Below the pieces are notes generated by a model. That model was not told where the DNA came from and did no database searches. It saw only the letters and a program-made list of their open reading frames with translations. Positions 2,365 to 60,631 of a DNA stretch of 64,000 nt are shown piece after piece. Position 1 is the stretch's first letter. The number at the start of each line of letters is the position of its first letter. The translations under genes and the position numbers were made by a program. The stretch comes from Saccharothrix sp. HUAS TT1 (GTDB lineage Bacteria; Actinomycetota; Actinomycetes; Mycobacteriales; Pseudonocardiaceae): the NCBI RefSeq assembly GCF_040744945.1, contig NZ_CP160454.1, positions 124,001 to 188,000 on the forward strand. Direction: 5' to 3'.

Positions 2365-2404
2365 GGGGGTGTGACCTGCACAAACAGATGGGTATCACAC
2401 CCCC
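2365..2404 (+). terminator. hairpin that carries the GGGTATCACA box in its loop and 3' arm
   Basis: GGGGGTGTGA (2365-2374) pairs with TCACACCCCC (2395-2404) around a 20-nt loop. The GGGTATCACA box (2390-2399) spans the end of the loop and the 3' arm. It lies between the operon ending at 2327 and the promoter for the gene at 2497. It could end the upstream transcript and present a protein site at the same time. The same design recurs at 4852-4903. Confidence 0.5.
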
Positions 2405-2410
2405 CACGAC

Positions 2411-2449
2411 CTGCATTACATGTACATCATGTGCAGGGCATATTAGGTT
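2411..2449 (+). promoter_or_regulatory. class-2 operator and promoter for the gene at 2497
   Basis: The palindrome (2411-2437) is centred on ATGTACAT with outer arms CTGCA and TGCAG. A second -10 candidate, TAGGTT (2444-2449), starts 44 nt after the GGGTATCACA box; the copy at 4883 has the same 44-nt distance. The leader that follows (GAAGATCCACA, CCCTCACGGAA, CGGGAGCA) is nearly repeated in front of the gene at 4988. Confidence 0.5.
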
Positions 2450-2496
2450 GATCGAAGATCCACAACACCAACCCTCACGGAACCACCGGGAGCACC

Positions 2497-3237
2497 ATGA
2501 CCATCCGACTGTTGGTCGCCACCGCCCGAGGCCAGGGCAGGCGGGACAACGACTTCCACTGGGCCGCCGAAGGCGAACCCGTCCGCCTCGCGTCGATGTG
2601 CGACAGCGACCGCCGCAGCCCCGACTCGCGCTGCGGCTGCGGACGCGCCTTCGTCGGCCTCGACACCTCCAGGTCCACCAGCACCACCCGGGTCGCCGAA
2701 CTCGACCTCACCGTCGAGGACTACGCGCGACGGCTGTTCGAGGACCAGAACCTGTTCACCCTCGACGAGTGCCGCGAGGACGCCGAGGACCTGATCCGCG
2801 CCGTTCGGGACTTCCCGGTCGGCATGGTCGTGGAGCGGCGCGGCAACACGTTGCAGGAACGCCGCGTCGTGTCCGCCCACTACCGGGTGACGTCCCTCGT
2901 CGTCCGCGAGATCCCCGGCTGCGGCGACCACGACGACGCCCTGCGGGCCGCGCACACTGAGCTGCTGGAACACGGCTGGCTGCTTCCCCGCCGCACGCAC
3001 CGCGTCCACGACGTCGCCCCGCACCCGCGCCCCGGGCCCGGCGCTGCCCGCCCGTACGCCGTCGTGACGACCGTGGCCCGCGAGATCGACGGCGACGGAC
3101 CCCGGCACGCCCTGGAGCTGGAGAACGCGGCGCTGCGGGAACTGGGCTGGACCCCCACCACCCGCAGGGGCGACACCTCCCGGGTCAAGGGCATCCGCCG
3201 CAGGCCCGCCGCGACCCCGACCGCGGGGAGGAGCTGA
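2497..3237 (+). CDS. conserved actinobacterial protein, DUF7715-like
   Basis: 246 residues. The ATG at 2497 has CGGGAGCACC in front. The first 80 residues resemble a small family common in Streptomyces and relatives: VATARGQG, then a DFHW box, a cysteine before a DR pair, CGCGRAF, and a TTRV strand before DLTVEDY. I recall this family as DUF7715, but could not check it. The second half is two similar strand/helix units (about 125-160 and 185-220) that resemble those in the next gene. First gene of the operon 2497-4834, behind a class-2 promoter. Function unknown. Confidence 0.85.
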   Translation: MTIRLLVATARGQGRRDNDFHWAAEGEPVRLASMCDSDRRSPDSRCGCGRAFVGLDTSRSTSTTRVAELDLTVEDYARRLFEDQNLFTLDECREDAEDLIRAVRDFPVGMVVERRGNTLQERRVVSAHYRVTSLVVREIPGCGDHDDALRAAHTELLEHGWLLPRRTHRVHDVAPHPRPGPGAARPYAVVTTVAREIDGDGPRHALELENAALRELGWTPTTRRGDTSRVKGIRRRPAATPTAGRS

Positions 3238-3238
3238 C

Positions 3239-3604
3239 GTGGAGCGCTACTCCGTGATCATCCCGGCGGTGCGGGAGATCGCCGCCGCCGACGCCGACCG
3301 TGCCCTGGACCAGGCGTGCCTCGCGCTGCGCGCGCAGGGCTGGACCGGCATCAACGAGGGCGCCGAGATGTTCGACGTCACCACCGGCGGCACCGACGCG
3401 CACGGCCGCCGCCGCTACGCCGTGATCATCGCCGCCCTGCGCGACGTGCACGCCGACGGGCCACCCGACGTCGACATCGCCCGCGCCGAGCTGACCGGGC
3501 TGGGCTGGACGCCGCTGCCCGACGGACACGAGGTCCACGACCACAGCCCCACCGGCCGCGACCCGGTCGACGACGACCAGGCGGGAGCCGGCGATGTGGA
3601 TTGA
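3239..3604 (+). CDS. unknown protein made of two repeated alpha/beta units
   Basis: 121 residues, GTG start with GAGGAG 7 nt upstream, one base after the preceding stop. Two units can be aligned: YSVIIPAVREIAAADADRA with a later LRAQGWT, and YAVIIAALRDVHADGPPDV with a later LTGLGWT. The C-terminal half of the preceding protein contains the same kind of unit (VVREIPGCGDHDDA ... LLEHGWL and VAREIDGDGPRHA ... LRELGWT). This suggests internal duplication followed by gene splitting. Function unknown. Confidence 0.8.
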   Translation: MERYSVIIPAVREIAAADADRALDQACLALRAQGWTGINEGAEMFDVTTGGTDAHGRRRYAVIIAALRDVHADGPPDVDIARAELTGLGWTPLPDGHEVHDHSPTGRDPVDDDQAGAGDVD

Positions 3605-4834: not shown

Positions 4835-4851
4835 GGTCGGTCGGCTGACCG

Positions 4852-4903
4852 GTCGCAGGGGGTGTGAGCTGCGCAAATAGACGGGTATCACACCCCCTGC
4901 GAC
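4852..4903 (+). terminator. perfect 16-bp hairpin with the GGGTATCACA box
   Basis: GTCGCAGGGGGTGTGA (4852-4867) pairs without mismatch with its complement at 4888-4903 around a 20-nt loop. The GGGTATCACA box (4883-4892) spans the end of the loop and the 3' arm. The arrangement and loop length match 2365-2404, so this looks like a duplicated control unit rather than an ordinary terminator; there is no T-run. Confidence 0.55.
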
Positions 4904-4942
4904 CTACATATGATGTACATGTGATGCAACGCCGAATAGGCT
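4904..4942 (+). promoter_or_regulatory. class-2 operator and promoter for the gene at 4988
   Basis: The palindrome (4904-4930) contains TATGATGTACAT; TATGAT is at 4909-4914. A second possible -10, TAGGCT, lies at 4937-4942, again 44 nt after the GGGTATCACA box. Which -10 is used cannot be decided from sequence. The leader is nearly the same as that at 2450-2496. Confidence 0.5.
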
Positions 4943-4987
4943 GGATGAAGATCCACACCAACCCTCACGGAAACATCGGGAGCAATT

Positions 4988-5245
4988 ATGACGGCCAAGG
5001 AACTGAACGCGGTCCGGATCTATTTCGCCCGCAAGCCCGACGGCGAATACGAATTCGTCACCGACTGCCTCAAGGGCGTGCGCGGCGAGCCCGCGAAGTA
5101 CGCCGCCGAGTCGGTCGTGGTCGGCGCGGTCGAGGCCGGCTACATCGGCGACGACAAGCGCATCGCCGACGAGATCGTGGCGATGGTCGAGTCCGAGGAG
5201 CGCGCCGACACCGAGGACACCCTGCACGCCGGGACGTCGCGGTGA
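4988..5245 (+). CDS. unknown 85-aa protein
   Basis: The ATG has CGGGAGCAATT upstream. The protein is acidic, with an N-terminal strand pair (NAVRIYFARKPDGEYEFVT) followed by helices. The stop overlaps the next GTG at 5242. It heads the operon 4988-6902 behind a class-2 promoter. No family recognised. Confidence 0.8.
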   Translation: MTAKELNAVRIYFARKPDGEYEFVTDCLKGVRGEPAKYAAESVVVGAVEAGYIGDDKRIADEIVAMVESEERADTEDTLHAGTSR

Positions 5246-8348: not shown

Positions 8349-8990
8349 TCACCGCGCCCGGCGCCCTCCCTCCCGACGGGCCCGCTCGACGGCCGCCACC
8401 GGGTCCACCGGCAGCACCGACAGCTCCACCGTGTCCGGCCCCCACGGACCACCGTCGGCCACGACCACCTCGTACGGCCGGGTGTGGCGGCCGTGGTGGT
8501 CGCGCCGCAGGTACCCGATCCGGCCCAAGTCCGGAGCGGGCGTCCGCAGCACCAGGCCCAGGTACTCGTAGGCGAGGTGCAGGCCCGCCGCCGACCACGC
8601 CGCGACCGCCTCGGCCGCGCCCTCGTGGTGCGGGGCCAGCGCAGCCGTCACCGCCTCCGGATCCAGGGCGGCCTCCGCCCACGTGGGAGGTTGGTACTCC
8701 AGCACCTCCAGCACCTCGACGTCTTCCGGCCACAGCCACGGCGACACCCCGACGTCCGGATTCGACGTCCAGGACGTCCGCTCCCGCACCGCCTGTCCGG
8801 CCTTGCCCGACAGGCCCATCACCACGACCTCACCCTGGCGGAACGTCCGGGCCGCGCTCTCCCACGGCGCGACCGTGTGGTTCCGCAGCACCCGCAGCCG
8901 GGCGCGCACATGCCACGGCCGCTCCGGCACCGAACCCACCACCGGGCCGACCCCGCCCACCCGCACCACCCGGTCGTCCTGCCGCGTCAT
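8349..8990 (-). CDS. unknown 213-aa protein
   Basis: The ATG overlaps the stop of the upstream gene (ATGA, 8987-8990), so the two are coupled. The middle (about 45-75) is strand-rich, with a KAGQAVRERTSW segment; residues 110-150 are helical. About 170-195 contains a VVVADGGPWG turn. I do not recognise the family. Its partner carries a C-terminal HTH and a palindromic operator, so the pair may be one functional unit. Confidence 0.78.
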   Translation of the reverse strand: MTRQDDRVVRVGGVGPVVGSVPERPWHVRARLRVLRNHTVAPWESAARTFRQGEVVVMGLSGKAGQAVRERTSWTSNPDVGVSPWLWPEDVEVLEVLEYQPPTWAEAALDPEAVTAALAPHHEGAAEAVAAWSAAGLHLAYEYLGLVLRTPAPDLGRIGYLRRDHHGRHTRPYEVVVADGGPWGPDTVELSVLPVDPVAAVERARREGGRRAR

Positions 8991-9748
8991 CGCCCCTGCT
9001 CCTCTCCCGGCGAGTCCTCGGCCGCCGCGTCGGCGGCGTGGACCTCCTTGCGGATCTGGTACACCCGGGCGCGGGACAGTTCGGCGGCGTCCCACACCTG
9101 TTTGTGCGGCACCTTGTGCGGCGTCTTGGAGTCCAGGGCGTCGACGATCGCCCGGTGGAACACCGCCGTCGACTGCTCGCCGGGCGCCCAGTACATCGCC
9201 ACCTTCGCGTTGTGGATCGCGGCCACCATGCGCTCGACCGGGTCCCGCTTGCGGCTGTCCGGGGTCAGCTCGTCGAACCCGATCGAGGTGGGAAGCCGGT
9301 CGGCCAGCCAGCGCGCGGTCCGCTCGGCGGGGTTGCCCAGCCGGCGCAGGGTGCCGTCGGCGAGCAGCACCACCCGGACGTCCTCCCGGTCGTGCAGGCT
9401 GATCTCCCACCCGGCGAAGTCGGACTCCAGCGAGTCCGGCCGCTCCAGCCGCGGCAGCGTGGCCAGCGGCTTGCGGCTGTCGAGCTTGTCCATCTCGGCC
9501 GTCGGCATCAGGCCCACGACCATCACGCTCGCGAAGCGACCGACGCCGCCCAGCTCGGCCCACGTGAGCAGGTTGGTCGCGTGCCCGCGGGGCAGGGTGG
9601 TGCGCAGATTGCTGGGCAGCGTGCCGCCCAGGGGGAACGAGCTGCTGTGCCACGACAGCTTGATCGGCCCGCCCGGATCGTCGGCCAGAGCCCCGGTCGT
9701 CGAGGCCAGGCCGTCTTCCCGGTGCAGGTTGCGCTCCATCACATCCAT
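8987..9748 (-). CDS. putative DNA-binding protein with a C-terminal helix-turn-helix
   Basis: 253 residues from the ATG at 9748; a second ATG at 9739 is also possible and neither has a clear ribosome binding site. The first 190 residues are an unrecognised domain. Residues about 212-235 (VPHKQVWDAAELSRARVYQIRKEV) read as an HTH: a helix, a turn, then a recognition helix starting SRARVYQ. The gene starts 8 bp from a very long palindrome (9756-9794), so autoregulation is a reasonable inference. No known regulator family recognised. Confidence 0.75.
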   Translation of the reverse strand: MDVMERNLHREDGLASTTGALADDPGGPIKLSWHSSSFPLGGTLPSNLRTTLPRGHATNLLTWAELGGVGRFASVMVVGLMPTAEMDKLDSRKPLATLPRLERPDSLESDFAGWEISLHDREDVRVVLLADGTLRRLGNPAERTARWLADRLPTSIGFDELTPDSRKRDPVERMVAAIHNAKVAMYWAPGEQSTAVFHRAIVDALDSKTPHKVPHKQVWDAAELSRARVYQIRKEVHAADAAAEDSPGEEQGR

Positions 9749-9755: not shown

Positions 9756-9816
9756 GTCTACCCCACTGGACTGAAACAGTCCAGTGGGGTAGACCTTTTT
9801 GTCCAGTGAGGTAGAT
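9756..9816. promoter_or_regulatory. 18-bp inverted repeat plus a third half-site
   Basis: Two perfectly complementary 18-nt arms (9756-9773 and 9777-9794, GTCTACCCCACTGGACTG and its complement) are separated by AAA. A third, direct copy of the right arm with three changes (GTCCAGTGAGGTAGAT) follows at 9801-9816. It lies between a minus-strand gene (9748) and the class-2 promoter of the gene at 9916. It looks like an operator with two and a half sites; as RNA it would also form a strong hairpin. Confidence 0.7.
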
Positions 9817-9843: not shown

Positions 9844-9889
9844 TCCACGAGCTACATGTGATCGACATATGATGTACATGACATGCACC
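9844..9889 (+). promoter_or_regulatory. class-2 promoter and operator for the gene at 9916
   Basis: The palindrome (9863-9889) contains TATGATGTACATGACATG. TATGAT at 9868-9873 is a good -10. A weak -35, TCCACG (9844-9849), stands exactly 18 nt upstream, the spacing seen in the other class-2 promoters. Confidence 0.55.
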
Positions 9890-9915
9890 TCACCGACAGC
9901 ACGGAGCCACCGCCG

Positions 9916-10395
9916 ATGACCAGCCCGAACACCTGGTACACCTGTTCGTTCCCCGAGTACGCACTACCCGCCGACGAGGCGATCCCGGTGCGCTCCGCGA
10001 ACGGCTTCCCCCGCTACAAGATCCGCTACCCGCTCGTCCACGCCCTGCCCTCCACCTTCCCCGCGAAGGAGTGGGTGTTCGGCGGACTCGGCCGCGACGA
10101 GTTCACCCAGCGCTACCTCGACATGATGAACACCGACGGCTACGTCGACCGGGTCCGCGAGGAGGCCGCGGTCATCCGCCGCGCGATGGGCGTCGCCGAG
10201 GACTTCCCCCTCGCCCTGCTCTGCTTCGAGCAACTGGCCAAGAAGCCCGCCAAGGGCAAGGGCACGCCCTGGTGCCACCGCACCATCTTCGCCGCCGGCT
10301 GGACGCAGCTCACCGGCGAACCCGTGCGGGAACTCGGCGCCGTGCCGATGCCCGAGACCGCCGCCGAGGAACGCGCCCTCGACGGCCTGTTCTGA
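9916..10395 (+). CDS. DUF488-like protein
   Basis: 159 residues. The ATG at 9916 (ACGGAG 9 nt upstream) is preferred over 9883, which lies in the operator. The C-terminal half has LALLCFEQL (LLCFE box), then WCHR and an AAGWTQLTGEPVREL helix. This is the pattern of DUF488-type proteins, whose CHR motif lies in a pocket of unknown use. The gene at 11502 is a paralogue with the same boxes. Transcribed from a class-2 promoter. Activity unknown. Confidence 0.75.
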   Translation: MTSPNTWYTCSFPEYALPADEAIPVRSANGFPRYKIRYPLVHALPSTFPAKEWVFGGLGRDEFTQRYLDMMNTDGYVDRVREEAAVIRRAMGVAEDFPLALLCFEQLAKKPAKGKGTPWCHRTIFAAGWTQLTGEPVRELGAVPMPETAAEERALDGLF

Positions 10396-17505: not shown

Positions 17506-18372
17506 TCACAGGTCGGCGGCCACCCCGTGGAGGAAGGCGGCCGTCGCCGCCGGGTCCTCGGCGTTGCGCAACGCCCTGGCGAACATGTGGTTCGCCGCCG
17601 AGATGTTGTCATGATCCTCGTAGACGCCTCGGCCCACCTCGGCGTCCACCTCGACCACGTCGGGGTCGACGTCGTCGTCAAAGCCGTAGATCGCGCAGCT
17701 CGACACCGCCGGCCACGGGCCCTTCGCGTAGGGGAGGTAGCGGATGTCCATGCCCGCTTCGATGTCGACTTCCAGCCGCTTGAGCTGCCCCTTCATCACG
17801 CTACGGCCGCCGACAATCTGACGCACGGCCGTTTCGCCCATCACCACGACGAGGCCGCGGAACCCCGAACGCTTGAACAGGTGCTCGCGGCGCTCCATGC
17901 GCAGGTCGACCAGCTTCGGCACGTGCATCGGTCGGATGTTGCCGCCGGTCGCCGAGATCACCGCGTGCGCGTACTCCTCGGTCTCCAGCAGGCCCGACAC
18001 GAACATCGACTCGTAGATGCGCAGGGTGTCGGCGCTGTCCTCCAGTTCCAGCACGAACCGTAGGTCGGCGCCCAGGGTGGAGCCGTAATCGTCCCACCAC
18101 GCCGGCTGCTCGGTGCGCGCCAGCAAGGCCGTCAACTGCCCGGTCGTCTCGTCGCCCGCGTCCAGCCGCGCGCACAGCGTGGCCAGCTCGTCCGGATCGG
18201 GTCTCGACGAGCCGTTCTCGATCCGCGACAGGTAGCCCTGCGTGATGTGCAGGTCCTTGGGGCGGCCCGCGTTCACCGCCGTGCACGCCTGGGCCTGGCT
18301 CTTGCCGGTCTGCACCCGCAGGCGGCGGAGCCTGCGTCCGAGCTGCTTGGCGGGCAGCGTCCTGCGTGGCAT
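17506..18372 (-). CDS. XRE-family transcriptional regulator with DUF5753 domain
   Basis: 288 residues. ATG 18372 is chosen for the GGGAAAGG 10 nt upstream. Residues about 10-65 form the XRE helix-turn-helix (LGRRLRRLRVQTGKSQ ... HITQGYLSRIENGSSRP). About 105-280 matches DUF5753 (RIYESMFVSGLLETEEYAHAVI, RMERREHLF, DIRYLPYAKGPW). Such proteins regulate neighbouring genes in actinomycetes, often with a DUF397 partner, here just downstream. Tandem dyads at 18487-18508 are candidate operators. Confidence 0.92.
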   Translation of the reverse strand: MPRRTLPAKQLGRRLRRLRVQTGKSQAQACTAVNAGRPKDLHITQGYLSRIENGSSRPDPDELATLCARLDAGDETTGQLTALLARTEQPAWWDDYGSTLGADLRFVLELEDSADTLRIYESMFVSGLLETEEYAHAVISATGGNIRPMHVPKLVDLRMERREHLFKRSGFRGLVVVMGETAVRQIVGGRSVMKGQLKRLEVDIEAGMDIRYLPYAKGPWPAVSSCAIYGFDDDVDPDVVEVDAEVGRGVYEDHDNISAANHMFARALRNAEDPAATAAFLHGVAADL

Positions 18373-18486
18373 GAAGGCCACCTTTCCCTCGTTCGTCGTA
18401 TCGTGGCCTGTTCGCCCACCCTCGGGCCGCACGACGGGTTGGACGGTTGTCAATGTGATTCATCCCAATGGGCGACTGTCGCTGTC

Positions 18487-27886: not shown

Positions 27887-28755
27887 CCCGGCCCCCGGAC
27901 CGGGAGGTCCGCGCCGACGCGCCCGCCGCACCGTCGGCGCGCGTCCTGGCGCTCGACATCGGCGTCTACGGCCACCGCGGCTCCATCTCGTCGATGTTCT
28001 GGTACCAGGCGGGTGGCCGGCTGCACACCCACGTCGCCGAGCTGCTGCCCGCCGACGCCACCGTGCTCGACCAGCTCGACGTCCTCGAAGCCCTCGCCGA
28101 GTCCTACCCCGAGTACTGGCAGGTGTCCCCGGTGGTGGTGATCGGGGTGACCGTGTTGTCCCCGGTCGGCCGCCGCGAGGTCCGCCACCACCTCGACGCC
28201 TGGTACAACCCGCCGTGGCGCCGCCGGCTGGTGTCGGTCGGCGACTACGCCGGCGAGCACACCGGCATCCGCGGCCTGATGTCGCGCAAGAAGCTGCGCG
28301 ACCTGCTCGCCCACCGGCTCACCGAGCACACCATCACGTTGACGCGCGCCCAGCACGACGCGGTCGCCCTCTACACCGGCCGCCGCGAGAAGCCCGGCCG
28401 GGACGACGACGACGAGTGGCGCACCGACGAAGCCGACGCCTACGCCCTGCCGGTCGCCCTCTCGTGCTACGCGGCCGGGGCGCTCCTGCCGCCGCCGCTG
28501 CCCGGCCCGCAGGAGCAGCACCGGCAGCTCGACCGGGCCGCCCGCGCCTGGCAACTCCAGCTCGGCGTGTCCGAGACCGAAGCGCTCGACCACGCCCGCC
28601 GGCGCGGCCACCCCCACCAGGTGGCCGCCGCCGCCACCAGCCCCACCCCGGACACGCCGGTGATCCGCCGCCCCGAGCCCGGCACCCCGATCCGTGGCCA
28701 GCGCGGCTTCCGCACACCGGCCACCGACCCCGACGGGAGCACGCGATGGGGTTGA
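27883..28755 (+). CDS. RNase H/RuvC-like protein following the terminase ATPase
   Basis: 290 residues, coupled by GTGA overlap. VLALDIGVYG (21-30) reads as the first strand of an RNase H-like fold with D25. VVVIGVTVLSP near 87 would be a later core strand. DEADAYALPVALSCYAAG near 182 resembles the acidic C-terminal helix. It occupies the slot where a terminase nuclease domain would be, but is more divergent than the gene at 24028. The last 80 residues are Pro/His-rich and probably disordered. Active or degenerate status cannot be decided. Confidence 0.65.
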   Translation: MTRPPDREVRADAPAAPSARVLALDIGVYGHRGSISSMFWYQAGGRLHTHVAELLPADATVLDQLDVLEALAESYPEYWQVSPVVVIGVTVLSPVGRREVRHHLDAWYNPPWRRRLVSVGDYAGEHTGIRGLMSRKKLRDLLAHRLTEHTITLTRAQHDAVALYTGRREKPGRDDDDEWRTDEADAYALPVALSCYAAGALLPPPLPGPQEQHRQLDRAARAWQLQLGVSETEALDHARRRGHPHQVAAAATSPTPDTPVIRRPEPGTPIRGQRGFRTPATDPDGSTRWG

Positions 28756-30515
28756 CCGCCCTCGCCGAACGCGTCCTGACGCAGCTGCTGCCGCCCAGGA
28801 CACCGTTCGAGCCGCTGGACCCGGCCGCCTACCAGGAGTGGGACCCGCCGCCGCTCGCCGACGCCGCCGTGGTGCCCGCCGCCGACCAGCACGCGCCGCT
28901 CGCCCTGACCGCCGCGACCCGCCCGGCCCGGCCGCCGCTGCTGCCGCTGTCCCAGCAGGCCCCGTTGCAGACCGAGTGGTCGACGCGGGCGTGGGCCTAC
29001 TACCGCTCCAGCGGCGAAGCCCGCCAGTCCGTCGACTGGGTCGCCGGTGGCATCAGCCGCTTCCACCTCTACATCGGAGAGGCCACCACCGACGGGTCCG
29101 GCGACCCCGAACCGCTCGCCGACCCCGGTGTCGCCGGCGAGGTCCTGGCCGAGCTGTTCGACGGACCGCTCGGCCAGCAGGAGATCCTGCGCAAGCTCGC
29201 CATCGGCCTGCTCGTGCCCGGCGAGGTGTGGCTGGTCGGCTACCCCAAACCGGCCGACGCGTTCGACGACCCCGAGGCGGACGGGCCGCGGTCGCTGCTC
29301 GACGACCGGCTGCCCGACCGGCAGCGCTACGCCGACTGGGACCGGCTCACCGACCCCGGCGCGCTCCCCGACGGCGGCGATCCGCGCGGCGTGTTCGACA
29401 TCGACGAGGGCACCCGCACCGGCGACACCGCCTGGACCGCGGTGTCGCGCAAGGAATGGCAGGAGATGGAGTCCGGGCGGCTGCGCGTCAAGCTGCCCGA
29501 AGACCCGCGGCGCTCCGCGGACCACTGGGTCGACTTCGGGCCCGACGAGGTCGTGCTCATCCCCGTCTACCACCCCGACCCGGAGGACTGCTCGCGCGCC
29601 ACCAGCGCGTTCGAGGCCGCGCTGAGCATCTTCGAGGAGTTGGACGGCCTCAACCGCAGGGTCGGCGCGGACATCAACAGCCGCCTGGCGGGCGCCGGTG
29701 TCGCCGTCGTGTCCGAGAACGCCACGATGCCCAACCCCGGGCCCGCGCAGGGCGGCGGCGCCAACCCGCTCAACGCGCACCCGTTCTTCACCGCCCTGAT
29801 GACCGCGATCAGCACGGCCATCGCCAACCCGGACGCCGCCTCCGCGGTCGCCCCGATCACGCTGATGGTGCCCGACGAGGCGTTCCAGGGCGCCGGGCCG
29901 ATCAAGCACATCACCTTCTCCACGCCGTTCGACGCGCAGGTGCCGGTGCTGCGCGCGGACGCCCGCAAACGCGTCGCCGTCGTCATGGACATCCCGGCCG
30001 CGATCGTCAACGGCATCGAAGACCTCAACCACTGGTCCAGCTGGTCGATCTCCGACGACGCCGTGCGCTCCCACCTCGGCCCGCTCGCGTCGCTGATCTG
30101 CTCCGCGCTCACCCGCCGCATCCTGTGGCCCGCGCTGCGCGCCGCAGGCGAGACCGACTGGAGGTCCAAGGTCATCTGGTGGGACCCGAGCGAACTCGTG
30201 CTGCGCCCCGACCGCTCCACCGAGGCTCTGGCCGCGCACGGCGCGCGGGTGATCTCCGACAAGACGCTGCGCCGCGTCCTCACCTTCGACGAGGAGGACG
30301 CCCCCAGCGAGGAGGAGCTGGCCCGCCGCGCCGCGCAGGACGCCGCCGCGAAGGGCGGCCAGGCCGCCCGCGCCGGCGGTGTGGAGCCGGAGGGCGGCCA
30401 GCGCACCCCGGGCGACCGGCCCGAAGCCCCGTCCCGGGAGGAGTCCGACCGGCGCCTGGCCCGCCAGGACGCCGCCGGCCCGCCCCGACAACCCGCCGCC
30501 CGCGTGCCCGGCTGA
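28746..30515 (+). CDS. phage portal protein
   Basis: 589 residues; ATG 28746 (GGGAGC upstream) overlaps the previous gene by 10 nt. Portal-type segments: ARQSVDWVAGGISRFHLYI (about 96-115), LNRRVGADINSRLAGAGV (300-317), then DARKRVAVVMDIPAAIVNG (about 404-422) and HWSSWSISDDAVRSHLGPL (427-445). The last 100 residues are charged and Ala/Gly-rich. Portals form the ring through which DNA enters the head. No capsid or tail gene follows; the next gene is a recombinase. Confidence 0.85.
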   Translation: MGLTALAERVLTQLLPPRTPFEPLDPAAYQEWDPPPLADAAVVPAADQHAPLALTAATRPARPPLLPLSQQAPLQTEWSTRAWAYYRSSGEARQSVDWVAGGISRFHLYIGEATTDGSGDPEPLADPGVAGEVLAELFDGPLGQQEILRKLAIGLLVPGEVWLVGYPKPADAFDDPEADGPRSLLDDRLPDRQRYADWDRLTDPGALPDGGDPRGVFDIDEGTRTGDTAWTAVSRKEWQEMESGRLRVKLPEDPRRSADHWVDFGPDEVVLIPVYHPDPEDCSRATSAFEAALSIFEELDGLNRRVGADINSRLAGAGVAVVSENATMPNPGPAQGGGANPLNAHPFFTALMTAISTAIANPDAASAVAPITLMVPDEAFQGAGPIKHITFSTPFDAQVPVLRADARKRVAVVMDIPAAIVNGIEDLNHWSSWSISDDAVRSHLGPLASLICSALTRRILWPALRAAGETDWRSKVIWWDPSELVLRPDRSTEALAAHGARVISDKTLRRVLTFDEEDAPSEEELARRAAQDAAAKGGQAARAGGVEPEGGQRTPGDRPEAPSREESDRRLARQDAAGPPRQPAARVPG

Positions 30516-34060: not shown

Positions 34061-34543
34061 TCAGGCGGACGGCGCCGCCGGGACGGCCGGCGGGGCGGTC
34101 CGGTCGCCGCCCACCGGCCGGTGCCCGACGTGGATCACCACCCGCGCCAGGCCGTCGCGGGTCTCGCCGAAGCCGATGCCGTCGACCGCGTGCCCGTCGC
34201 GTCCCTCGACGTCGTCGAGCCAGTCCGCCGCGCGGCGCAGCGCGTCGGCCGCGGTGAACCCGGTGACCGTGACCGTGCGCGCCGCGAACGGCGCCGAGGA
34301 GGTCACCGACAGGCCGCACGCCACGTCCGACAGGTGGCGCTCCGGCCAGTCCAGGGCGGTGGACAGCCTCTCCAGCGACGGCTCCCACGCCTGCGGCTCC
34401 CGGTAGGGGCCGGTGACGAACAGGAACGCGTCGACCGCCCCCGCGTCCAGATCCGACTTCTTCACCAGCGTCGCCCGGTTGATGCCCAGTTCCCGCATCC
34501 GCGCGTCCATCGCCGCCGACACCGCGTGCCACTGTCCGATCAT
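34061..34543 (-). CDS. putative XRE-like DNA-binding protein
   Basis: 160 residues. ATG 34543 lies 7 nt behind a -10-like TACCCT, so it may be leaderless. Residues about 8-75 (AAMDARMRELGINRATLVKKSDLDAGAVDAFL ... LERLSTALDWPERHLSDVA) read as an XRE-type HTH. Residues 85-140 are a strand-helix domain with a GFTAADALRRAADWLDD helix. Divergent from the gene at 34588, a likely target, with only 44 bp between starts. Confidence 0.72.
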   Translation of the reverse strand: MIGQWHAVSAAMDARMRELGINRATLVKKSDLDAGAVDAFLFVTGPYREPQAWEPSLERLSTALDWPERHLSDVACGLSVTSSAPFAARTVTVTGFTAADALRRAADWLDDVEGRDGHAVDGIGFGETRDGLARVVIHVGHRPVGGDRTAPPAVPAAPSA

Positions 34544-38048: not shown

Positions 38049-38104
38049 TGAAAGCTACTTGCACCCGCGCCCAGCACCTGCATATGATGTACATATCATC
38101 GCAC
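38049..38104 (+). promoter_or_regulatory. class-2 promoter and operator for the gene at 38120
   Basis: -35 TTGCAC (38059-38064) within TGAAAGCTACTTGCAC, 18-nt spacer, -10 TATGAT (38083-38088). The palindrome 38078-38104 (core TGCATATGATGTACAT) covers the -10, so binding would block RNA polymerase. Confidence 0.7.
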
Positions 38105-38119
38105 TCATATGGAGGTTCT

Positions 38120-45728: not shown

Positions 45729-45781
45729 TGACATGATGTCACATCACATGATTTCAATTCATGTGATGTGACATCATGTGA
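45729..45781. promoter_or_regulatory. large AT-rich palindrome, double operator before the gene at 45811
   Basis: Two 23-nt arms (45729-45751 and 45759-45781) are complementary with one mismatch around a 7-nt spacer. Each arm is itself nearly palindromic (TGATGTCACATCA, TGATGTGACATCA). The half-site TGATGT is shared with the class-2 operators, but here the halves are one base further apart. Probably a related but distinct repressor site. Confidence 0.65.
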
Positions 45782-48641: not shown

Positions 48642-48667
48642 CGGTTCCTCCGAGGCGGCTCGTCCTT

Positions 48668-48720
48668 GCTGCATGTCATGTACATGATATGCAGGTTTCC
48701 AGTAGCTTTGCAAGTAGCTT
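48668..48720 (-). promoter_or_regulatory. class-2 promoter and operator for the gene at 48641
   Basis: On the minus strand: TTGAAAGCTACTTGCAA holds the -35 TTGCAA (48708-48713), then 18 nt, then -10 TATCAT (48684-48689). The palindrome 48668-48694 has core ATCATGTACATGACATG and covers the -10. Confidence 0.7.
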
Positions 48721-48767
48721 TCAAAGCGTCGCTGGGTCACATCACCGCCCCCCGGCCGAGCCCACGG

Positions 48768-50966: not shown

Positions 50967-51218
50967 TCACTCGGGGTGGAGCTCCGGAACGGGCAGGTCG
51001 CGCACGGCCAGGCCGTGCTCGGCGAGCACCGCGCGGCCCGTGTCGAGCAGGACGTCGCCGATCGCCTCCTCCAGCGCGGCGCGCACCCCCGGATGGTCGG
51101 CCGGTTCGTGGCCGAGGTGGAGCATCAGCTCGCCCACGACACCGGACAGGCCGCTGACCGGGCCCATGCCCACCCACATCCCGGAGGGCTCCGGCCACGA
51201 CCGCCAGGGCGCGGTCAC
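50967..51218 (-). CDS. unknown 83-aa protein
   Basis: GTG 51218 overlaps the stop of the upstream HTH gene. Helical (GVVGELMLHLGHEPAD, VRAALEEAIGDVLLDTGRAVLAEHGL). No family recognised. Confidence 0.72.
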   Translation of the reverse strand: MTAPWRSWPEPSGMWVGMGPVSGLSGVVGELMLHLGHEPADHPGVRAALEEAIGDVLLDTGRAVLAEHGLAVRDLPVPELHPE

Positions 51219-52603
51219 CGGCCGGCCGGGGCGGGGCGCGCGTCGACCAGGTGCACCACCGTCCCGCCGCCGGACACGCCGTCCTCGGCGGCGGTGCGGC
51301 CGGCGGACCGGTCGTCCGCGCCGAGCACCACGGTCAGCACGCCGGTGTCGTCGCGGTACACCGTGGCGTCCACGCGCTCCCCGTAGCGCAACTCGGGCAG
51401 CCCGGCGGCCGGGTCGACGTCGACGGCCGCGATGCCGGCGCGCCGCACGTTCCCCACGGTGGTGTGGGAGAGACCGAGCAGCCGGCCCAGCTCGCTGTCG
51501 TTGTCGCGCTTCTCACCCCACGAGAACACCACGTGCAGGCCCGCGTTGCGCAGGGCGACCCGTCGCTGCGCCCCCGCCGTGGCCACCGCGGCGTCCCGGG
51601 CCGTGGAAGCCAAGGCGGTGCGGTAGGCGTCGCGCAGCTCGCGGCGGCGCAGCGACGCCCACGCGGGCAGGCCGGTGAGGTGCACGCCGCGTTCCCGCCA
51701 CCGGTCCCGGGTGATGGCCACCCAGCCGGGCAGCTCGTCGTCGTGGGCGTCGCGCAGGCCCTCCACGTCGTCCACCGGCCACTCGGAGAACCAGGCGACG
51801 GCATCGCACACCTTCATCCCGCCGTGCGCCGCGTGGCGGGCCCCGTACAGCCAGGCGCGGGCACCCGCCACGGTGCGCCGGTGCGGGCCGTGCGCCGAGC
51901 CGTTCCAGCCGAAACGGTCGAACACGCCCGGCAGCATGTCGTCCACGTACTCGAACAGCAGGCCGCGGGCGAAGTGGGTGGCGACGAACTCGATCGTGTC
52001 GTCGGTGGCATCGCCGATGCCGTCCCGGCCGATCCAGCTGCGGATGCGGTCCAGGGCGTCGGGGCGGACGTCGAGCAGTTCGTCGATGTCGCGCAGGCCC
52101 GTCCACTCGACCGAGTCGTCGGGTTCGACCGGGTCGCGTCGGCACAGGTCGTGGACGGTCCAGCCGGCGCGCAGCGCGGCGGCGCTCCAGTCGAGTTCGT
52201 CGCGGCCGGGGATGGGGCGCAGGCCGGCGACGAGGGCCTGCGCGTAGGGCAGGACGCGAGCGGCGAGGGCGTTGCCCGCCGCGGCGTCGAGCCACGGCAG
52301 CTGCGGGACCACCTCCGGATCGCTGGAGTCGATCATCCAGGAGATCCGGGCGGGCACGCGCTTGAGGTCGAACGGCGGGAAGTGCTCGGCGCGTTCGTTC
52401 TCCAGGCGCTGCTGGAGCGGGACGCGCCAGTCCTCGCCGTGGAAGAAGAACTCGCCGGTCGTCAGGTCCAGCACCAGGTGCTGGTAGTGGCCGGCGCGGT
52501 CGCTCAGGTGCGGGATCGGCGGCAGTTCGTCGTCGGTGACAGCGCGCAGCCACACCTTCTCGGGTGGGGCGGCGGGCAGCCGGGCCGGGGTGCTCGTGGA
52601 CAC
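51215..52603 (-). CDS. large putative DNA-binding protein with an internal HTH
   Basis: 462 residues; GTG 52603 has GAAGGAG upstream. The first 60-100 residues include strands (YQHLVLDLTTGEFFFHGEDW). Long helical middle. About 365-395 (NDSELGRLLGLSHTTVGNVRRAGI) is a clear HTH. The end is strand-rich. The size and single HTH do not fit a known regulator family. It lies about 150 bp from the class-2 operator at 52770 and is one candidate for its regulator. Confidence 0.75.
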   Translation of the reverse strand: MSTSTPARLPAAPPEKVWLRAVTDDELPPIPHLSDRAGHYQHLVLDLTTGEFFFHGEDWRVPLQQRLENERAEHFPPFDLKRVPARISWMIDSSDPEVVPQLPWLDAAAGNALAARVLPYAQALVAGLRPIPGRDELDWSAAALRAGWTVHDLCRRDPVEPDDSVEWTGLRDIDELLDVRPDALDRIRSWIGRDGIGDATDDTIEFVATHFARGLLFEYVDDMLPGVFDRFGWNGSAHGPHRRTVAGARAWLYGARHAAHGGMKVCDAVAWFSEWPVDDVEGLRDAHDDELPGWVAITRDRWRERGVHLTGLPAWASLRRRELRDAYRTALASTARDAAVATAGAQRRVALRNAGLHVVFSWGEKRDNDSELGRLLGLSHTTVGNVRRAGIAAVDVDPAAGLPELRYGERVDATVYRDDTGVLTVVLGADDRSAGRTAAEDGVSGGGTVVHLVDARPAPAGR

Positions 52604-52750: not shown

Positions 52751-52796
52751 TTGCCGACCTACATGTGACCTGCATATGATGTACATGACATGCAAG
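52751..52796 (+). promoter_or_regulatory. class-2 promoter and operator for the gene at 52825
   Basis: -35 TTGCCG (52751-52756), 18-nt spacer, -10 TATGAT (52775-52780). The palindrome 52770-52796 has core TATGATGTACATGACATGCA. Confidence 0.7.
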
Positions 52797-52824
52797 AACG
52801 TCCCGATCATGGAGGTGATCCCCG

Positions 52825-53079
52825 GTGGCCCTCACGCCCACCCCGCGCACCCCGGCGCCGCGCACCATCGCCGCGTGGCTCGACGAGCACATCCCCGGCA
52901 TCGACCACGAACGCGCCGAAGGAGCCGGCAACGACCTCGCCGCCTGCTGGGCCGACGGCGACGACACCCGCTACGAGTCCGCGATGGACGTCCTGCGCGG
53001 CCGGCTGCTCGACACCGAGCAGCACCCGCGCGACTTCGTCGACCGCATGGCCGCCGACTTCGGCGTCACCCTCACCTGA
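52825..53079 (+). CDS. unknown 84-aa protein
   Basis: GTG 52825 with GGAGG 10 nt upstream. Helical and acidic (TIAAWLDEHIPGIDHERAEGAGNDLAA). First gene of the operon 52825-54702. No family recognised. Confidence 0.78.
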   Translation: MALTPTPRTPAPRTIAAWLDEHIPGIDHERAEGAGNDLAACWADGDDTRYESAMDVLRGRLLDTEQHPRDFVDRMAADFGVTLT

Positions 53080-54787: not shown

Positions 54788-54833
54788 TTCACGTGACCCC
54801 CATCACCTACATATGATGTACATATGACGCAGC
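54788..54833 (+). promoter_or_regulatory. class-2 promoter and operator for the gene at 54854
   Basis: -35 TTCACG (54788-54793), 18-nt spacer, -10 TATGAT (54812-54817). The palindrome 54807-54833 contains TACATATGATGTACATATG. Confidence 0.65.
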
Positions 54834-54853
54834 CAAGCAGGCGGGAGCAGGGC

Positions 54854-55234
54854 ATGACCGACGCCGACACGCACACCGACTGGGGCGCGCTGGTGCGCAC
54901 CACGAAGAACCTGCTCGACGACTACCAGACCACCCAGGCCGCGCTCGCCCAAATGCCGCCCGAGCTGCGCGCCGCGCGGCGCGGCGACCGCGTCGAGTAC
55001 CTGATCGACGACACGCGCCTGGTGAAGACCTTCGCCGCGCGGGCCGCGATCGGCCGCGGGGATCGCGTGCGCGCCGCGATCCGGTTCACCGACGGGTCGG
55101 TCGCCGAGATCCGGTACATGACCGAGCTGGTCGTCTCGCCCACGCCCGAGGCCGAGTTGCCCGCGTGCGCGTTCTTTTCGGGCAGTGGCGCGCGGTGCGC
55201 GAACTGCCGTATCCGCCGCGCCATGCACGCCTGA
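54854..55234 (+). CDS. unknown 126-aa protein
   Basis: ATG 54854 has GGGAGCAGGGC upstream and is preferred over 54824, which lies in the operator. Helical head (LVRTTKNLLDDYQTTQAAL); strand-rich middle (RVEYLIDDTRLVKTF; RAAIRFTDGSVAEIRYMTELVV). The end, CAFFSGSGARCANCRIRR, is a possible zinc site. Monocistronic. No family recognised. Confidence 0.77.
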   Translation: MTDADTHTDWGALVRTTKNLLDDYQTTQAALAQMPPELRAARRGDRVEYLIDDTRLVKTFAARAAIGRGDRVRAAIRFTDGSVAEIRYMTELVVSPTPEAELPACAFFSGSGARCANCRIRRAMHA

Positions 55235-55263: not shown

Positions 55264-55308
55264 TGAAACCTACTTGCAGACCTCCATCATATGTGCATAT
55301 GATGGAGG
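55264..55308 (+). promoter_or_regulatory. class-2 promoter with the most symmetric operator, for the gene at 55345
   Basis: TTGAAACCTACTTGCAG holds the -35 TTGCAG (55274-55279); 18 nt later is -10 TATGAT (55298-55303). The 28-bp dyad 55281-55308 (CCTCCATCATATG and its mirror) is near-perfect but has TGTGCA instead of TGTACA at the centre. A GGTATCAC follows directly at 55308-55315. Confidence 0.68.
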
Positions 55309-55344
55309 TATCACGCAGCACACCGGATCGTTTCGGAGGCACCG

Positions 55345-55743
55345 ATGACCACCGCCACCCGCCCCGCCGGCACCACCACCGGCACGCTGTTCACCCGCCC
55401 CGGCGAGGTGCTGATGGAGATCGCCTCCCCGGACGCCGGCGTGTGCGCGGCCACCGGCAAGCCGCTGGCCGCCGGCCTGTTCGCCTGGGACCACCGCATC
55501 AGCTCCGGCCCCCAGTACGACCGCCGCCCGTGGACGCTCGGCGAGGACGCCTTCCCCTCCGTCCGCCACACCGACGGCACCGACTGCCCCTCCTGGGGCC
55601 GCTTCCACACCGGCTGCACCGCCAAGCCCCGCTGCGCCGGCTGCGGCGCCCACGACAGCCTCACCACCACCCACGAGACCTGGGACGACGTCACCACCTG
55701 CGGCGCGTGCGGCCACACCGTGCGCCGCCCCACCGGTGACTGA
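55345..55743 (+). CDS. unknown 132-aa zinc-ribbon protein
   Basis: ATG 55345 with CGGAGG upstream. The end carries CAGCGAHD ... TTCGACGHTV, a CxxC-x18-CxxC ribbon; an additional CTAKPRC precedes it. The first half contains GVCAATGKPLAAGLFAWDHR. Followed by a strong terminator. Function unknown. Confidence 0.78.
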   Translation: MTTATRPAGTTTGTLFTRPGEVLMEIASPDAGVCAATGKPLAAGLFAWDHRISSGPQYDRRPWTLGEDAFPSVRHTDGTDCPSWGRFHTGCTAKPRCAGCGAHDSLTTTHETWDDVTTCGACGHTVRRPTGD

Positions 55744-55755
55744 CCGTCCCCTGCC

Positions 55756-56703: not shown

Positions 56704-56763
56704 CCGCCCCGCCGAACACCCCAACCCAACCCGAACCAACCTGCCCGACCCGAGGAGAACACC

Positions 56764-57249: not shown

Positions 57250-57272
57250 CCACGGACGGGAAGGCGAATCCG

Positions 57273-59100: not shown

Positions 59101-59735
59101 ACCAGCCCCCCGGCACCGATCCGCCCGCCGCGCCGCCGCCACCCGACGTCGGGGCCCTGGCCGCCCGCGTGGCCGACGCCTACGAGACCTCGCGCCACGC
59201 GACCGGCCCGCACGACCCGTCGCCGGACACGGCGTGCGCGGACGCGCTCACGGAGGCCGCGGACGTCGTGTTCGGCGCGCGTACCCCGGAAGCCACCACG
59301 TTCCGCGGCCTGGCCGTCCGCTTCCGCTCCTTCGCCGGGTCGGGCGCCGAGCTGGCCGCCGGCCACCTGGAGCAGTTCGGGCCGCACGCCCCGCCCGGCC
59401 GGGTGGCGTACGTGACCGCGCACGTGCGGCTGCTGGCCGACGTCCTGACCGCCTCCGGTGTGGACCTGCTCGACGACGGCCGCACCGTGGCCGAGCTGAA
59501 CGCCTACGCCGACGTGTTCGCCGCGCACCCGCTGCACGACGCCGCGCCCGCCTCGCGCGGACCCCGACCCGACCCGCGCACCCTGGGCGGCGCGCTGAAC
59601 CTGCTGCTGCCCGACTTCGTCGAAGACCTGCTCGACCGCGCCGCCGGCGACAGCCCGCCGGCCCACCGGCCGGCCGGCCACCCGCACCCCGGCCCCTCCG
59701 CCACGACCCCGCCACGAGAAGGACAGGACCGATGA
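59097..59735 (+). CDS. third of three tandem paralogues, lacking the cysteine box
   Basis: 212 residues, coupled GTG. Core VRLLADVLTASGVDLLDDGR, TVAELNAYADVF (about 110-141) is closest to the second copy. The CxxCGW segment is gone and replaced by a Pro/Arg-rich stretch; the tail differs (LPDFVEDLLDRAAGD). The stop overlaps the next ATG. Confidence 0.78.
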   Translation: MNQPPGTDPPAAPPPPDVGALAARVADAYETSRHATGPHDPSPDTACADALTEAADVVFGARTPEATTFRGLAVRFRSFAGSGAELAAGHLEQFGPHAPPGRVAYVTAHVRLLADVLTASGVDLLDDGRTVAELNAYADVFAAHPLHDAAPASRGPRPDPRTLGGALNLLLPDFVEDLLDRAAGDSPPAHRPAGHPHPGPSATTPPREGQDR

Positions 59736-60127
59736 CCACCACCACCCCCGCCGGCTCCACCAACGCCGGCCCGCCGCCCGCCCGGCCCGAGCCGCTGTCC
59801 GGTCCGCGCACCACCCCCGACGGCCGCACCTTCCCGTGGGGCCCGATCGACGCCGTGCACACCATCGGCCCCTACGAGATCGTCGAGTTCCGCTGGGACG
59901 CCAGCCGCGGGCCTCGCGGCAGGTGGACCCAGCACGGCACCACCTTCTTCCACCCCTACGTCAACGGCTGCGACACCGAGCGCTACCACAGCACCCTCGA
60001 CGGGGCGCTGGTCGACGCCGTCGCGTTCCGCTCCGAAGGCCCGAACAGCTCGGCCGGCTACTACTTCCTGCGCATGATCGGCGCGGGCACCGACGGGACG
60101 GACGGTGAGGGCGGTGGACGCGGCTGA
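59732..60127 (+). CDS. unknown 131-aa protein
   Basis: Coupled ATG. Disordered head, then GPYEIVEFRWDASRG, WTQHGTTFFHPYVNG and ALVDAVAFRSEG: a compact beta-rich domain. Overlaps the next gene by 23 nt. No family recognised. Confidence 0.76.
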   Translation: MTTTTPAGSTNAGPPPARPEPLSGPRTTPDGRTFPWGPIDAVHTIGPYEIVEFRWDASRGPRGRWTQHGTTFFHPYVNGCDTERYHSTLDGALVDAVAFRSEGPNSSAGYYFLRMIGAGTDGTDGEGGGRG

Positions 60128-60527
60128 GGCGTCGCGGCACGCCCGCGAGATCGCCGCCGACGTCGTCGGGGACCTCGACCCGGCGGGCCTGGCCTACGTC
60201 GTCGACCTCGATGTGGACGACGAGGCCCTGGACGCGATCCGGGGGGCGCTGGCCGACCTCGCGGCACGCCTGCGCCGCGAGCACCCCCACGGCGAGCACC
60301 CCGCCGGCGACCGGCCGGAGGAGGTGTCCGAGGACGACGGCCCCGAGGAGGAGCACGAGCCCACCGGGCGCATGGTGTGGCCGCCCGACGACGGGACCGA
60401 CGGCGGGCGGCACGCGTCGATCGTGGTGTGCGACCGGGCGCGGTGCCGTACGTCGGCATCGGCGTGGGTGCGGTCGCGCACCGGCCACGACGGCACGTTC
60501 CTGCCGTTCCGGCACGCGAGGACGTGA
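60105..60527 (+). CDS. unknown 140-aa protein
   Basis: GTG 60105 (GTG 60114 also possible). Helical head (ASRHAREIAADVVGDL; ALDAIRGALADLAARL), acidic middle, then SIVVCDRARCRTSASAW and a GHDGTFLPFRHART end. Last gene of its operon; a hairpin follows at 60560. Confidence 0.74.
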   Translation: MRAVDAAEASRHAREIAADVVGDLDPAGLAYVVDLDVDDEALDAIRGALADLAARLRREHPHGEHPAGDRPEEVSEDDGPEEEHEPTGRMVWPPDDGTDGGRHASIVVCDRARCRTSASAWVRSRTGHDGTFLPFRHART

Positions 60528-60559
60528 CAGGTAGCGGCTACCCTGAACGTCCCTCACCA

Positions 60560-60595
60560 AGGGGTGTGACCTGTGGAAACGCGGGTCACACCCCT
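60560..60595 (+). terminator. hairpin resembling those at 2365 and 4852
   Basis: AGGGGTGTGACC (60560-60571) pairs perfectly with GGTCACACCCCT (60584-60595) around a 12-nt loop. It shares the GGGGTGTGA/TCACACCCC stem with the two earlier hairpins, but has CGGGTCACAC in place of GGGTATCACA. It again stands between an operon end and a class-2 promoter. Confidence 0.6.
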
Positions 60596-60631
60596 ACTTG
60601 CCAGCTACACCATATGTACATAAGATGTAAC
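60594..60631 (+). promoter_or_regulatory. class-2 promoter and operator for the operon at 60671
   Basis: CCTACTTGCCA holds the -35 TTGCCA (60598-60603). The -10 is TAAGAT (60621-60626) with a 17-nt spacer, one less than elsewhere. The palindrome 60605-60631 has core CCATATGTACATAAGATG and is the least symmetric copy. Confidence 0.58.

Follow-up and report, generated by a model that had tools for sequence, protein, structure and literature searches.

The analysed window, a stretch of 64,000 nucleotides, covers positions 124001-188000 of C2, a 200,347-bp replicon that forms a separate contig. Matches to protein families placed phage head, portal and tail genes on C2, which also encodes ParA and a ParB with an HTH_ParB domain. 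With these phage genes and parAB, C2 is by gene content a phage-plasmid. Genes were called with a script made for this analysis, which gave 261 predicted proteins, almost all of them without known function. The features of the window that concern us most are a portal gene and nine putative operators, given by window coordinates that start at the first base of a 30-bp unit, with the predicted promoter elements of each.

2409..2438, + strand: operator, group A; TGTACA centre at the -35 position, palindrome followed at exactly 5 bp by a TAGGTT -10; precedes 2497-3237 (DUF7715 protein)
4902..4931, + strand: operator, group A; TAGGCT -10; precedes 4988-5245
9861..9890, + strand: operator, group B; TATGAT in the left half, poor -35; precedes 9883-10395, divergent from 8987-9748 (- strand)
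28746..30515, + strand: phage portal protein (phrog_776, E 2.7e-98)
38076..38105, + strand: operator, group B; TTGCAC -35 inside GAAAGCTACTTGCA; precedes 38120-38374
48667..48696, - strand (the only one): operator, group B; TTGCAA -35 inside the direct repeat GAAAGCTACTTGCAAAGCTACT; precedes 48339-48641 (- strand)
52768..52797, + strand: operator, group B; TTGCCG -35; precedes 52825-53079, divergent from 51215-52603 (- strand)
54805..54834, + strand: operator, group B; precedes 54854-55234
55280..55309, + strand: operator, group C; TATGAT in the right half, TTGCAG -35 18 bp upstream; precedes 55345-55743
60603..60632, + strand: operator, group C; TAAGAT -10, TTGCCA -35 17 bp upstream; precedes 60671-61180

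The repeated palindrome

All nine sites of the original prediction were present at the positions listed above. They had been described as palindromes of 27-28 bp, which is slightly short, as the unit is a 30-bp palindrome with the halves ACCTRCATNNNATGT and ACATNNNATGYAGGT. Each operator consists of two overlapping 13-bp TRCATNNNATGYA dyads that lie 11 bp (one helical turn) apart and have the central ATGTACAT in common. The mean half-site symmetry was 10.6/15 for the operators and 4.3 for random intergenic 30-mers. Two operators are extended by a further 11-bp unit on their upstream side, at 9861 (from 9850) and 52768 (from 52757), and both of these face minus-strand genes (8987-9748 and 51215-52603). 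A long inverted repeat at 45731-45779, with ACAT/ATGT words like those of the operator, was rejected with a best matrix score of -9.8.

A scoring matrix trained on the nine window sites and run over the whole replicon returned 17 distinct loci with scores of 28.4-52.4, more than the nine noted before; the other eight lie outside the window, elsewhere on C2, and were not in the training set. Two additional placements above 30 were 11-bp shifts of the sites at 9861 and 52768. The highest score of any C2 position overlapping none of the 17 sites was 7.9, and the highest in eight third-order Markov simulations was 13.6, while leave-one-out scores ranged from 32.4 to 55.8. Exact TRCATNNNATGYA dyads occurred 20 times on C2 and were absent from each of 10 simulated sequences. 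Intergenic DNA makes up 12.1% of C2, and 16 of the 17 sites lie entirely outside predicted genes. The remaining one, at 9861, overlaps a predicted gene start by 8 bases, and this start may have been called too early. When the 17 sites were compared with the predicted genes of C2, none fell within a gene body and all were upstream of predicted operons. The operons that follow them encode small, mostly unknown proteins; PHROGs matched two of ten proteins from such gene runs, both in families of unknown function. The sites had been said to precede genes on both strands, a claim that depends on 48667 alone, with the plus strand faced by 16 of the 17.

Position relative to predicted promoters

Core elements of predicted promoters are overlapped by 16 of the 17 sites, in three registers. 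Five sites have a TAGGNT -10 exactly 5 bp behind the palindrome, and 11 of the remaining 12 have a TATGAT-like -10 in its left or right half. Counted from the centre of the palindrome, the only offsets at which a TANNNT was common to at least three sites were -8 (seven sites), +3 (eight sites) and +20 (five sites), and the +20 set, which is outside the palindrome, reads TAGG[ACT]T. The probability of five of 17 sites sharing one offset was ~2e-7 for TANNNT, to be multiplied by 120 offsets, and ~1e-10 for TAGGNT, again times 120 offsets and for a form that was picked after looking. At C2 193924, all three offsets lacked a TANNNT. The earlier placement of the -10 within the palindrome needs correction at 2409 and 4902, where the TAGGNT 5 bp behind it is the better -10.

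The -10 boxes of 16 sites were assigned by hand, partly with the start-codon distance in view, and with this assignment the -10 offset correlated positively with the distance to the start codon (Spearman 0.83, P 6e-5). Predicted leaders measured 23-51 nt in 14 of the 16 assigned sites. Relative to the predicted transcript start, the palindrome centre would lie at about -32, -15 or -4, depending on the register. Repression is favoured over activation because the registers vary in this way. Alternatively, the protein at these palindromes could be an activator or dual regulator that belongs to the element and comes on in phage development, and some of the promoters would suit it: the sole -35 of group A is TGTACA, which has four of six matches to TTGACA and lies within the palindrome, and a number of the other -35 boxes are weak. 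Those at 9861, C2 191049 and C2 191878 have two to three matches of six, which would also fit activator-dependent promoters. Against this, the registers are up to 28 bp apart, and a group B centre at about -4 would sit beneath the polymerase, a poor position for activation. We consider activation unlikely, if still the most plausible of the alternatives to repression.

The palindromes might also be DNA-level signals, such as replication iterons, packaging sites or recombination sites, with the overlap with promoters being secondary. A precedent comes from Cluster O mycobacteriophages: PMC4351075 describes 17-bp dyad repeats of Corndog, with more than 30 copies per genome and none in M. smegmatis, which lie mostly off promoters, eleven of them within genes, and which those authors deemed unlikely to serve transcriptional regulation. 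Both sets are dyad-symmetric and dispersed, but on C2 the sites avoid gene bodies, precede predicted operons in every case, lie entirely between genes in 16 of 17 cases and keep fixed registers to the -10 boxes. Hence, a purely DNA-level role appears very improbable.

Host, related genomes and candidate regulators

The chromosome (8.5 Mb) of the high-GC host was scanned with the mismatch pattern CTRCATNNNATGTACATNNNATGYAG, not with the matrix. Allowing up to 3 mismatches, this pattern recovers 13 of the 17 C2 sites (14 places, one being an 11-bp shift; 36, 162076, 193924 and 194436 are missed), and it had no match on the chromosome. A shorter, one-sided 16-mer, ATGATGTACATGACAT, matched 12 chromosomal places within 3 mismatches, all of them with 3, compared with three places in the whole genome for its reversed control; none of the 12 comes as close as 3 mismatches to the longer palindrome. 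With this caveat for the 16-mer, the motif showed no comparable density in coding or host DNA, with zero sites in gene bodies and zero chromosomal matches within 3 mismatches of the palindrome, as expected from the original prediction. These results bear on whether a host-encoded regulator recognises the sites and so wires the element to host physiology. The excess of the 16-mer over its control and the lack of an element-encoded regulator tied to the sites speak for it, whereas the empty chromosomal scan speaks against it, as does the search of 389 other genomes of the family, in which the pattern occurred in 12 and its reversed control in 10. We regard a host regulator as improbable, only marginally less so than a DNA-level role.

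With the host's own genome included, 13 of 390 family genomes carried the pattern within 3 mismatches. Most of the outside matches are probably due to chance, because the reversed control was about as frequent. Three outside single sites look real from their sequence, because flanks that are absent from the search pattern match too. They are one in genome G383 (matrix score 42.5; adjoining genes terminase-like by eye), one in genome G014 (36.2; near a gene that is FtsK-like by eye) and one in Streptomyces massasporeus (38.9; ~1.1 kb from parAB), for which no second site was found within 3 mismatches. No C2 regulator had a convincing relative beside these three sites; an XRE-DUF5753 relative lies near the G383 site (E 6e-23), and this family is widespread. 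Among viral_contigs, the long pattern had no exact match, nor did the pSTRVI02 palindrome (see below) or the second promoter type match; a loose core matched 102 stretches, with a single position in each of the 80 matches listed. One match to the pattern was found in genome_contigs. The operator was not found described in the open-access papers searched.

KorB of RK2 is both a partition protein and a global repressor, and a ParB of the C2 plasmid might likewise bind the palindromes and serve both roles. C2 encodes ParA and a ParB with HTH_ParB, and of all C2 proteins just these two have relatives at E 1e-3 on the 8-kb S. massasporeus locus. However, another palindrome, GATAACCNGGTTATC, has exactly three mismatch-free copies on C2 (62631, 63042 and 64845), all flanking parAB at 62709-64690, and these are likely parS-like ParB sites, judged by sequence and position; the nearest operator is 32 kb from parAB. 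With the exact GATAACCNGGTTATC confined to parAB, ParB is an unlikely binder of the 30-bp palindromes, and we rate this as the least probable of the alternatives.

Of the 261 predicted proteins, 70 were scanned against at least one of the collections Pfam, PHROGs and NCBIfam, as was one further ORF. Within this set, WhiB, XRE-DUF5753, actinobacterial IHF, ParB and weak HTH matches were found, none of them tied to the sites. The candidate regulators considered most closely are listed below.

8987..9748, - strand: candidate regulator, 253 aa; weak HTH match to phrog_686, E 0.0017; divergent from the extended operator at 9861
17506..18381, - strand: candidate regulator with XRE HTH and DUF5753; no operator upstream
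34061..34543, - strand: candidate regulator, 160 aa; XRE-like by eye, though without a match in Pfam, PHROGs or NCBIfam; no operator upstream
51215..52603, - strand: candidate regulator, 462 aa; divergent from the extended operator at 52768

Five HTH proteins had been named as candidate binders. Two of these, 8987 and 51215, are encoded opposite the extended operators, and the other three (34061, 35316 and 45178) have no operator in the 220 bases upstream. The 8987 gene is also accompanied by a long inverted repeat that is distinct from the operator (9756-9794). Global protein searches with the 8987 and 51215 products returned only the queries themselves, and the 34061 product had one relative. 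By tblastn, relatives of 51215 were found on five Streptomyces plasmids only, at 29-35% identity, and the dyad was absent from the portions examined (24.8 and 9.3 kb) of two of these five. Structure models built from the single sequences of 8987 and 51215 had mean pLDDT values of 37 and 36, respectively, too low to be of use.

Known repressor systems and the likely role of the sites

The closest parallel is P1, for which PMC8546580 gives 22 C1 operators dispersed over the phage-plasmid. Both elements are phage-plasmids with about 20 sites scattered before operons (17 on C2, where the repressor role is our reading), and in the annotated P1 stretch examined the operators lie on or beside -35 or -10 boxes, similar to those on C2. 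The operator at c1 of P1 is bivalent, and C2 has its two extended operators facing minus-strand genes. The P1 operators are 17 bp long and asymmetric, whereas those of C2 are 30-bp palindromes of two overlapping dyads, and no homologue of C1 was found at E 1 among the 261 predicted C2 proteins (blastp and phmmer; query C1.100). L5-type temperate actinobacterial phages likewise have more than 20 repressor sites genome-wide, which PMC9283540 describes for L5 as 13-bp, asymmetric, monomer-bound and partly positioned to stop elongation. Unlike these stoperators, the C2 sites are symmetric and confined to positions upstream of predicted operons. The actinophage repressor c of phiC31 acts at many conserved inverted-repeat sites near early promoters, which resembles the C2 set. 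A homologue of phiC31 c was not detected on C2 (no phmmer match at E 10; best blastp E 0.66), and phiC31 has no exact TRCATNNNATGYA dyad.

Two related Streptomyces phage-plasmids were examined whole, and one of them has the dispersed-palindrome design. The distantly related, 191-kb pSTRVI02 (NC_015952.1) has several proteins in common with C2, including head and tail proteins, for the most part with 25-45% identity across the stretches that matched. It carries a dispersed palindrome, CTAGCACATNATGTGCTAG, whose arms CTAGCA-N7-TGCTAG occur 13 times, always with an annotated start codon 56-68 bp downstream. Such a nearly fixed distance would be expected as much for an activator as for a repressor. 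Unlike that of C2, this palindrome is 19 bp long, differs in sequence and falls in one distance class; the HTH-type C2 proteins had no match in pSTRVI02 at E 1e-5. In pS1D4-14.2, a dyad search of the whole sequence found no set of the C2 kind. The long dyads that recur there are GC-only (GCCCCGG-N11 or N12-CCGGGGC, 13 places) and look like terminators.

The reading that we favour, with a probability of roughly 70%, is that the 17 palindromes are operators of a single DNA-binding repressor encoded by the ~200-kb phage-plasmid. The original prediction of one repressor silencing many operons thus stands in part. A single DNA-binding protein at many promoters is well supported, because the same 30-bp palindrome recurs between genes, is, by the search pattern used, restricted to the element, and lies on core promoter elements at 16 of 17 sites; repression is only favoured, and none of the candidate regulators could be linked to the sites. 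We infer that this one protein binds all sites, represses, acts in lysogeny and is encoded by the element. The overlapping dyads could accommodate two dimers side by side, or one dimer whose subunits are bipartite. Once bound, the protein would mask the -10 or the -35, or the two together, and so shut the set of operons off. The likeliest purpose would be to keep early phage functions silent for as long as the element is maintained as a plasmid (lysogeny and immunity), although an "early lytic" role is a guess because the controlled genes are almost all of unknown function. In the best reading, the C2 system works in the manner of P1 C1, except that its sites are symmetric and that no homologue of C1 or phiC31 c is detectable. 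More tentatively, and with less than even confidence, it could represent a new element-wide repressor family that lines up on 11-bp-phased overlapping dyads. Such a repressor could be placed on the core promoter in three alternative registers, also at a second promoter class specific to the element (GACGGGTATCACA ... TAGGAT), and a single protein would in this way override both promoter types of the jumbo phage-plasmid.

The separate set of pSTRVI02 suggests more than one origin or divergence of dispersed-operator control among such elements, and the same wiring may have evolved in distant phage-plasmids with a different palindrome, as in pSTRVI02. In a survey, prophage sequence was reported in 130 of 844 actinobacterial plasmids (PMC10023795), so phage-plasmids make up a sizeable share of these plasmids. 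For C2, the set of 17 sites points to the operons that the prophage is likely to control, allows immunity and induction to be tested with a single reporter and provides a bait for the repressor.

A putative palindromic operator set on the element

C2, the 200,347-bp replicon that contains the window (C2 124001–188000), has a G+C content of 73.5%. The original prediction had placed nine class-2 operators in the window, and every one of them was recovered in the sequence. A symmetric matrix built from these nine sites and scanned over the whole of C2 returned 17 distinct loci with scores of 28.4–52.4. The top score at any C2 position outside the 17 loci was 7.9, and that in eight simulated replicons was 13.6. 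Eight loci were absent from the training set, among them a perfect palindrome (15/15) at C2 191049.

C2 36, 20071, 97083, 120753, 191049, 191878, 193924 and 194436: newly found class-2 loci, matrix scan

The class-2 unit is ACCTRCATNNNATGT followed by ACATNNNATGYAGGT, and can be read as two TRCATNNNATGYA dyads spaced 11 bp apart with ATGTACAT common to both. Exact TRCATNNNATGYA dyads occurred 20 times on C2 versus none in each of ten simulations, and 29 of the 31 C2 dyads with at most one mismatch fell within the 17 loci.

Rather than recurring at equal density in coding DNA or on the chromosome, an outcome named with the original prediction as counting against it, the motif was found in no C2 gene body (genes called by a simple codon-bias script, not by a standard gene finder) and at no site on the 8.5-Mb chromosome C1 with up to three mismatches to CTRCATNNNATGTACATNNNATGYAG, a pattern that recovers 13 of the 17 C2 loci. 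The looser one-sided 16-mer ATGATGTACATGACAT had 12 chromosomal places, all with three mismatches (one at C1 113426), versus 3 places in the whole genome for the reversed control. Among 390 family genomes a match was present in 13, the own genome included, versus 10 for the reversed control pattern. The long pattern had no exact match in public viral contigs and one in the genome collection. Three lone sites in other genomes matched in their flanks too and adjoined mobile-element-like or plasmid partition genes. In the genomes and contigs searched, the regulon as a set was seen on C2 only. A perfect palindrome of 48 bp in S. massasporeus (NZ_BMSE01000029.1, 2083–2130), some 1.1 kb upstream of parAB, has the lone site of that genome at its core.

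Promoter registers and a second promoter family

When the sites were aligned by the middle of the palindrome and read in the direction of the downstream gene, TANNNT was common to at least three sites at only three offsets: −8 (seven sites), +3 (eight) and +20 (five). Four sites had two of these offsets, and C2 193924 had none. The +20 hexamers (TAGGAT twice, TAGGTT, TAGGCT twice) lie outside the palindrome, always 5 bp behind it, and have its central TGTACA 17 bp upstream, in the −35 position. At −8 the hexamer lies in the left half of the palindrome and at +3 in the right half, as TATGAT, TATCAT or TAAGAT; in five of them TTGCAC, TTGCAA, TTGCCG, TTGCAG or TTGCCA stands 17–18 bp upstream, and in others the −35 is poor. 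Sixteen of the 17 sites could be assigned to groups by the position of the −10: behind the palindrome (A, five), in its left half (B, six) or in its right half (C, five). The distance from centre to start codon increases from B through C to A (Spearman 0.83, 16 assigned sites), as it should if the assigned −10 determines where transcription starts; this is support rather than proof, because we assigned the groups ourselves, partly using distance.

Four class-2 promoters (window 38050, 48697–48722, 55265 and 60594) have a CTACTTGC box on their −35, present at window 48697 as the direct repeat AAAGCTACTTGCAAAGCTACT. A relative of this box, AAAGTAACTTGCAAAGCTTA at C2 16515, precedes the gene at C2 16529, whose 118-aa product looks like an HTH protein. 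These boxes are possibly the site of a further regulator.

A second promoter family has ten members, consisting of GACGGGTATCACA (0–2 mismatches) followed by GAATAGGATTA or a variant; the count leaves out two minus-strand matches without TAGGAT.

C2 120731, 123728, 126387, 128880, 134414, 139296, 156557, 160242, 165962 and 167106 (+): second-family members

In all members the box starts 102–184 bp before the start codon of a gene, and in several an inverted repeat was seen by eye between the two boxes. The class-2 regulator seems to be laid over a second control layer, since three of the ten members, all of them group A promoters, have the operator between GACGGGTATCACA and TAGG(A/T/C)T, the two boxes of this element-specific promoter type, at the place that the inverted repeat takes in several other members.

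The phage-plasmid and its candidate regulators

Besides a portal protein, C2 encodes a MuF/portal-family head protein, a major head protein and a major tail protein, as well as an integrase-family protein, ParA, ParB, an actinobacterial IHF and a WhiB protein. The palindrome GATAACCNGGTTATC, probably parS or a par operator, has exactly three mismatch-free copies (C2 62631, 63042 and 64845), all flanking parAB (62709–64690). Because portal, head and tail genes stand together with parAB, its parS-like palindromes and the other genes listed, C2 is, by gene content, a phage-plasmid of some 200 kb.

Window 28746–30515: portal protein (phrog_776, E 2.7e-98)
Window 26290–26364 (−): lone tRNA-Gly (anticodon CCC); no other tRNA was found in the window
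Window 24761–26227 (−): phage DNA adenine methylase-like domain fused to a phage GNAT-like domain

No class-2 site lies in C2 20,101–97,082, the stretch that contains the named head and tail genes except the portal gene. The 17 operators, 16 of them on the plus strand, precede runs of small genes that are nearly all of unknown kind: Pfam named two of the 17 first genes, as DUF7715 and DUF2786, both domains of unknown function, in protein-family scans that covered 70 of the 261 called C2 proteins.

Two operators, at window 9861 and 52768, carry an additional 11-bp unit upstream (shifted-frame matrix scores 35.0 and 32.8). Each lies between divergent genes, 8987–9748 (−) and 9883 (+) for the former and 51215–52603 (−) and 52825 (+) for the latter. 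As P1 is annotated with a bivalent operator at its own c1 gene, the extended operators beside the regulator candidates 8987 and 51215 may by analogy mark an autoregulated gene. Three HTH-type genes are preceded by long inverted repeats, all different.

Window 9756–9794: repeat about 8 bp from the start codon of 8987
Window 45731–45779: repeat about 170 bp from the start codon of 45178
C2 66831–66884: repeat about 0 bp from the start codon of C2 66884

These repeats are possibly autoregulatory sites. That before 8987, where a third half-site lies at 9804, suggests that this gene has an operator of its own.

Comparison with known systems and proposed mechanism

One putative repressor at many dispersed sites likens C2 to P1 C1, to the L5 stoperators and to the phiC31 repressor. 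P1 C1 binds 22 dispersed operators (PMC8546580). The C2 sites differ in being symmetric, whereas those of P1 and L5 are asymmetric, and in being absent away from predicted operon starts. Because of these differences, and since no homologue of C1 or of phiC31 c was found among the C2 proteins, membership of the P1 C1, L5 and phiC31 types fails in each case on the features tested.

The distant relative pSTRVI02 (NC_015952.1) has a 19-bp palindrome of its own, typically CTAGCACATNATGTGCTAG (0–3 mismatches). Thirteen copies of the arms CTAGCA-N7-TGCTAG lie in 63238–100049, each 56–68 bp before an annotated start codon and 11 with AGT directly behind the arms, giving TAGAGT; two more, with the left end altered, lie at 63238 and 65756. 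In another relative, pS1D4-14.2, no dispersed palindrome set of the C2 kind was found. Its repeated long dyads are GC-only (GCCCCGG-N11/12-CCGGGGC, 13 places) and look like terminators. Its short dispersed words include GGTTTAATTAA, 10 times, and GACCAAGGAA with differing leading bases, 8–14 times each.

On C2, the site covers the −35 in group A, the left-half −10 in group B or the right-half −10 in group C. Steric repression tolerates such changes of register and activation seldom does, so repression fits better. Most likely, the regulon works through a single element-encoded repressor, a putative protein that would bind the 30-bp unit and block RNA polymerase from the core promoter.
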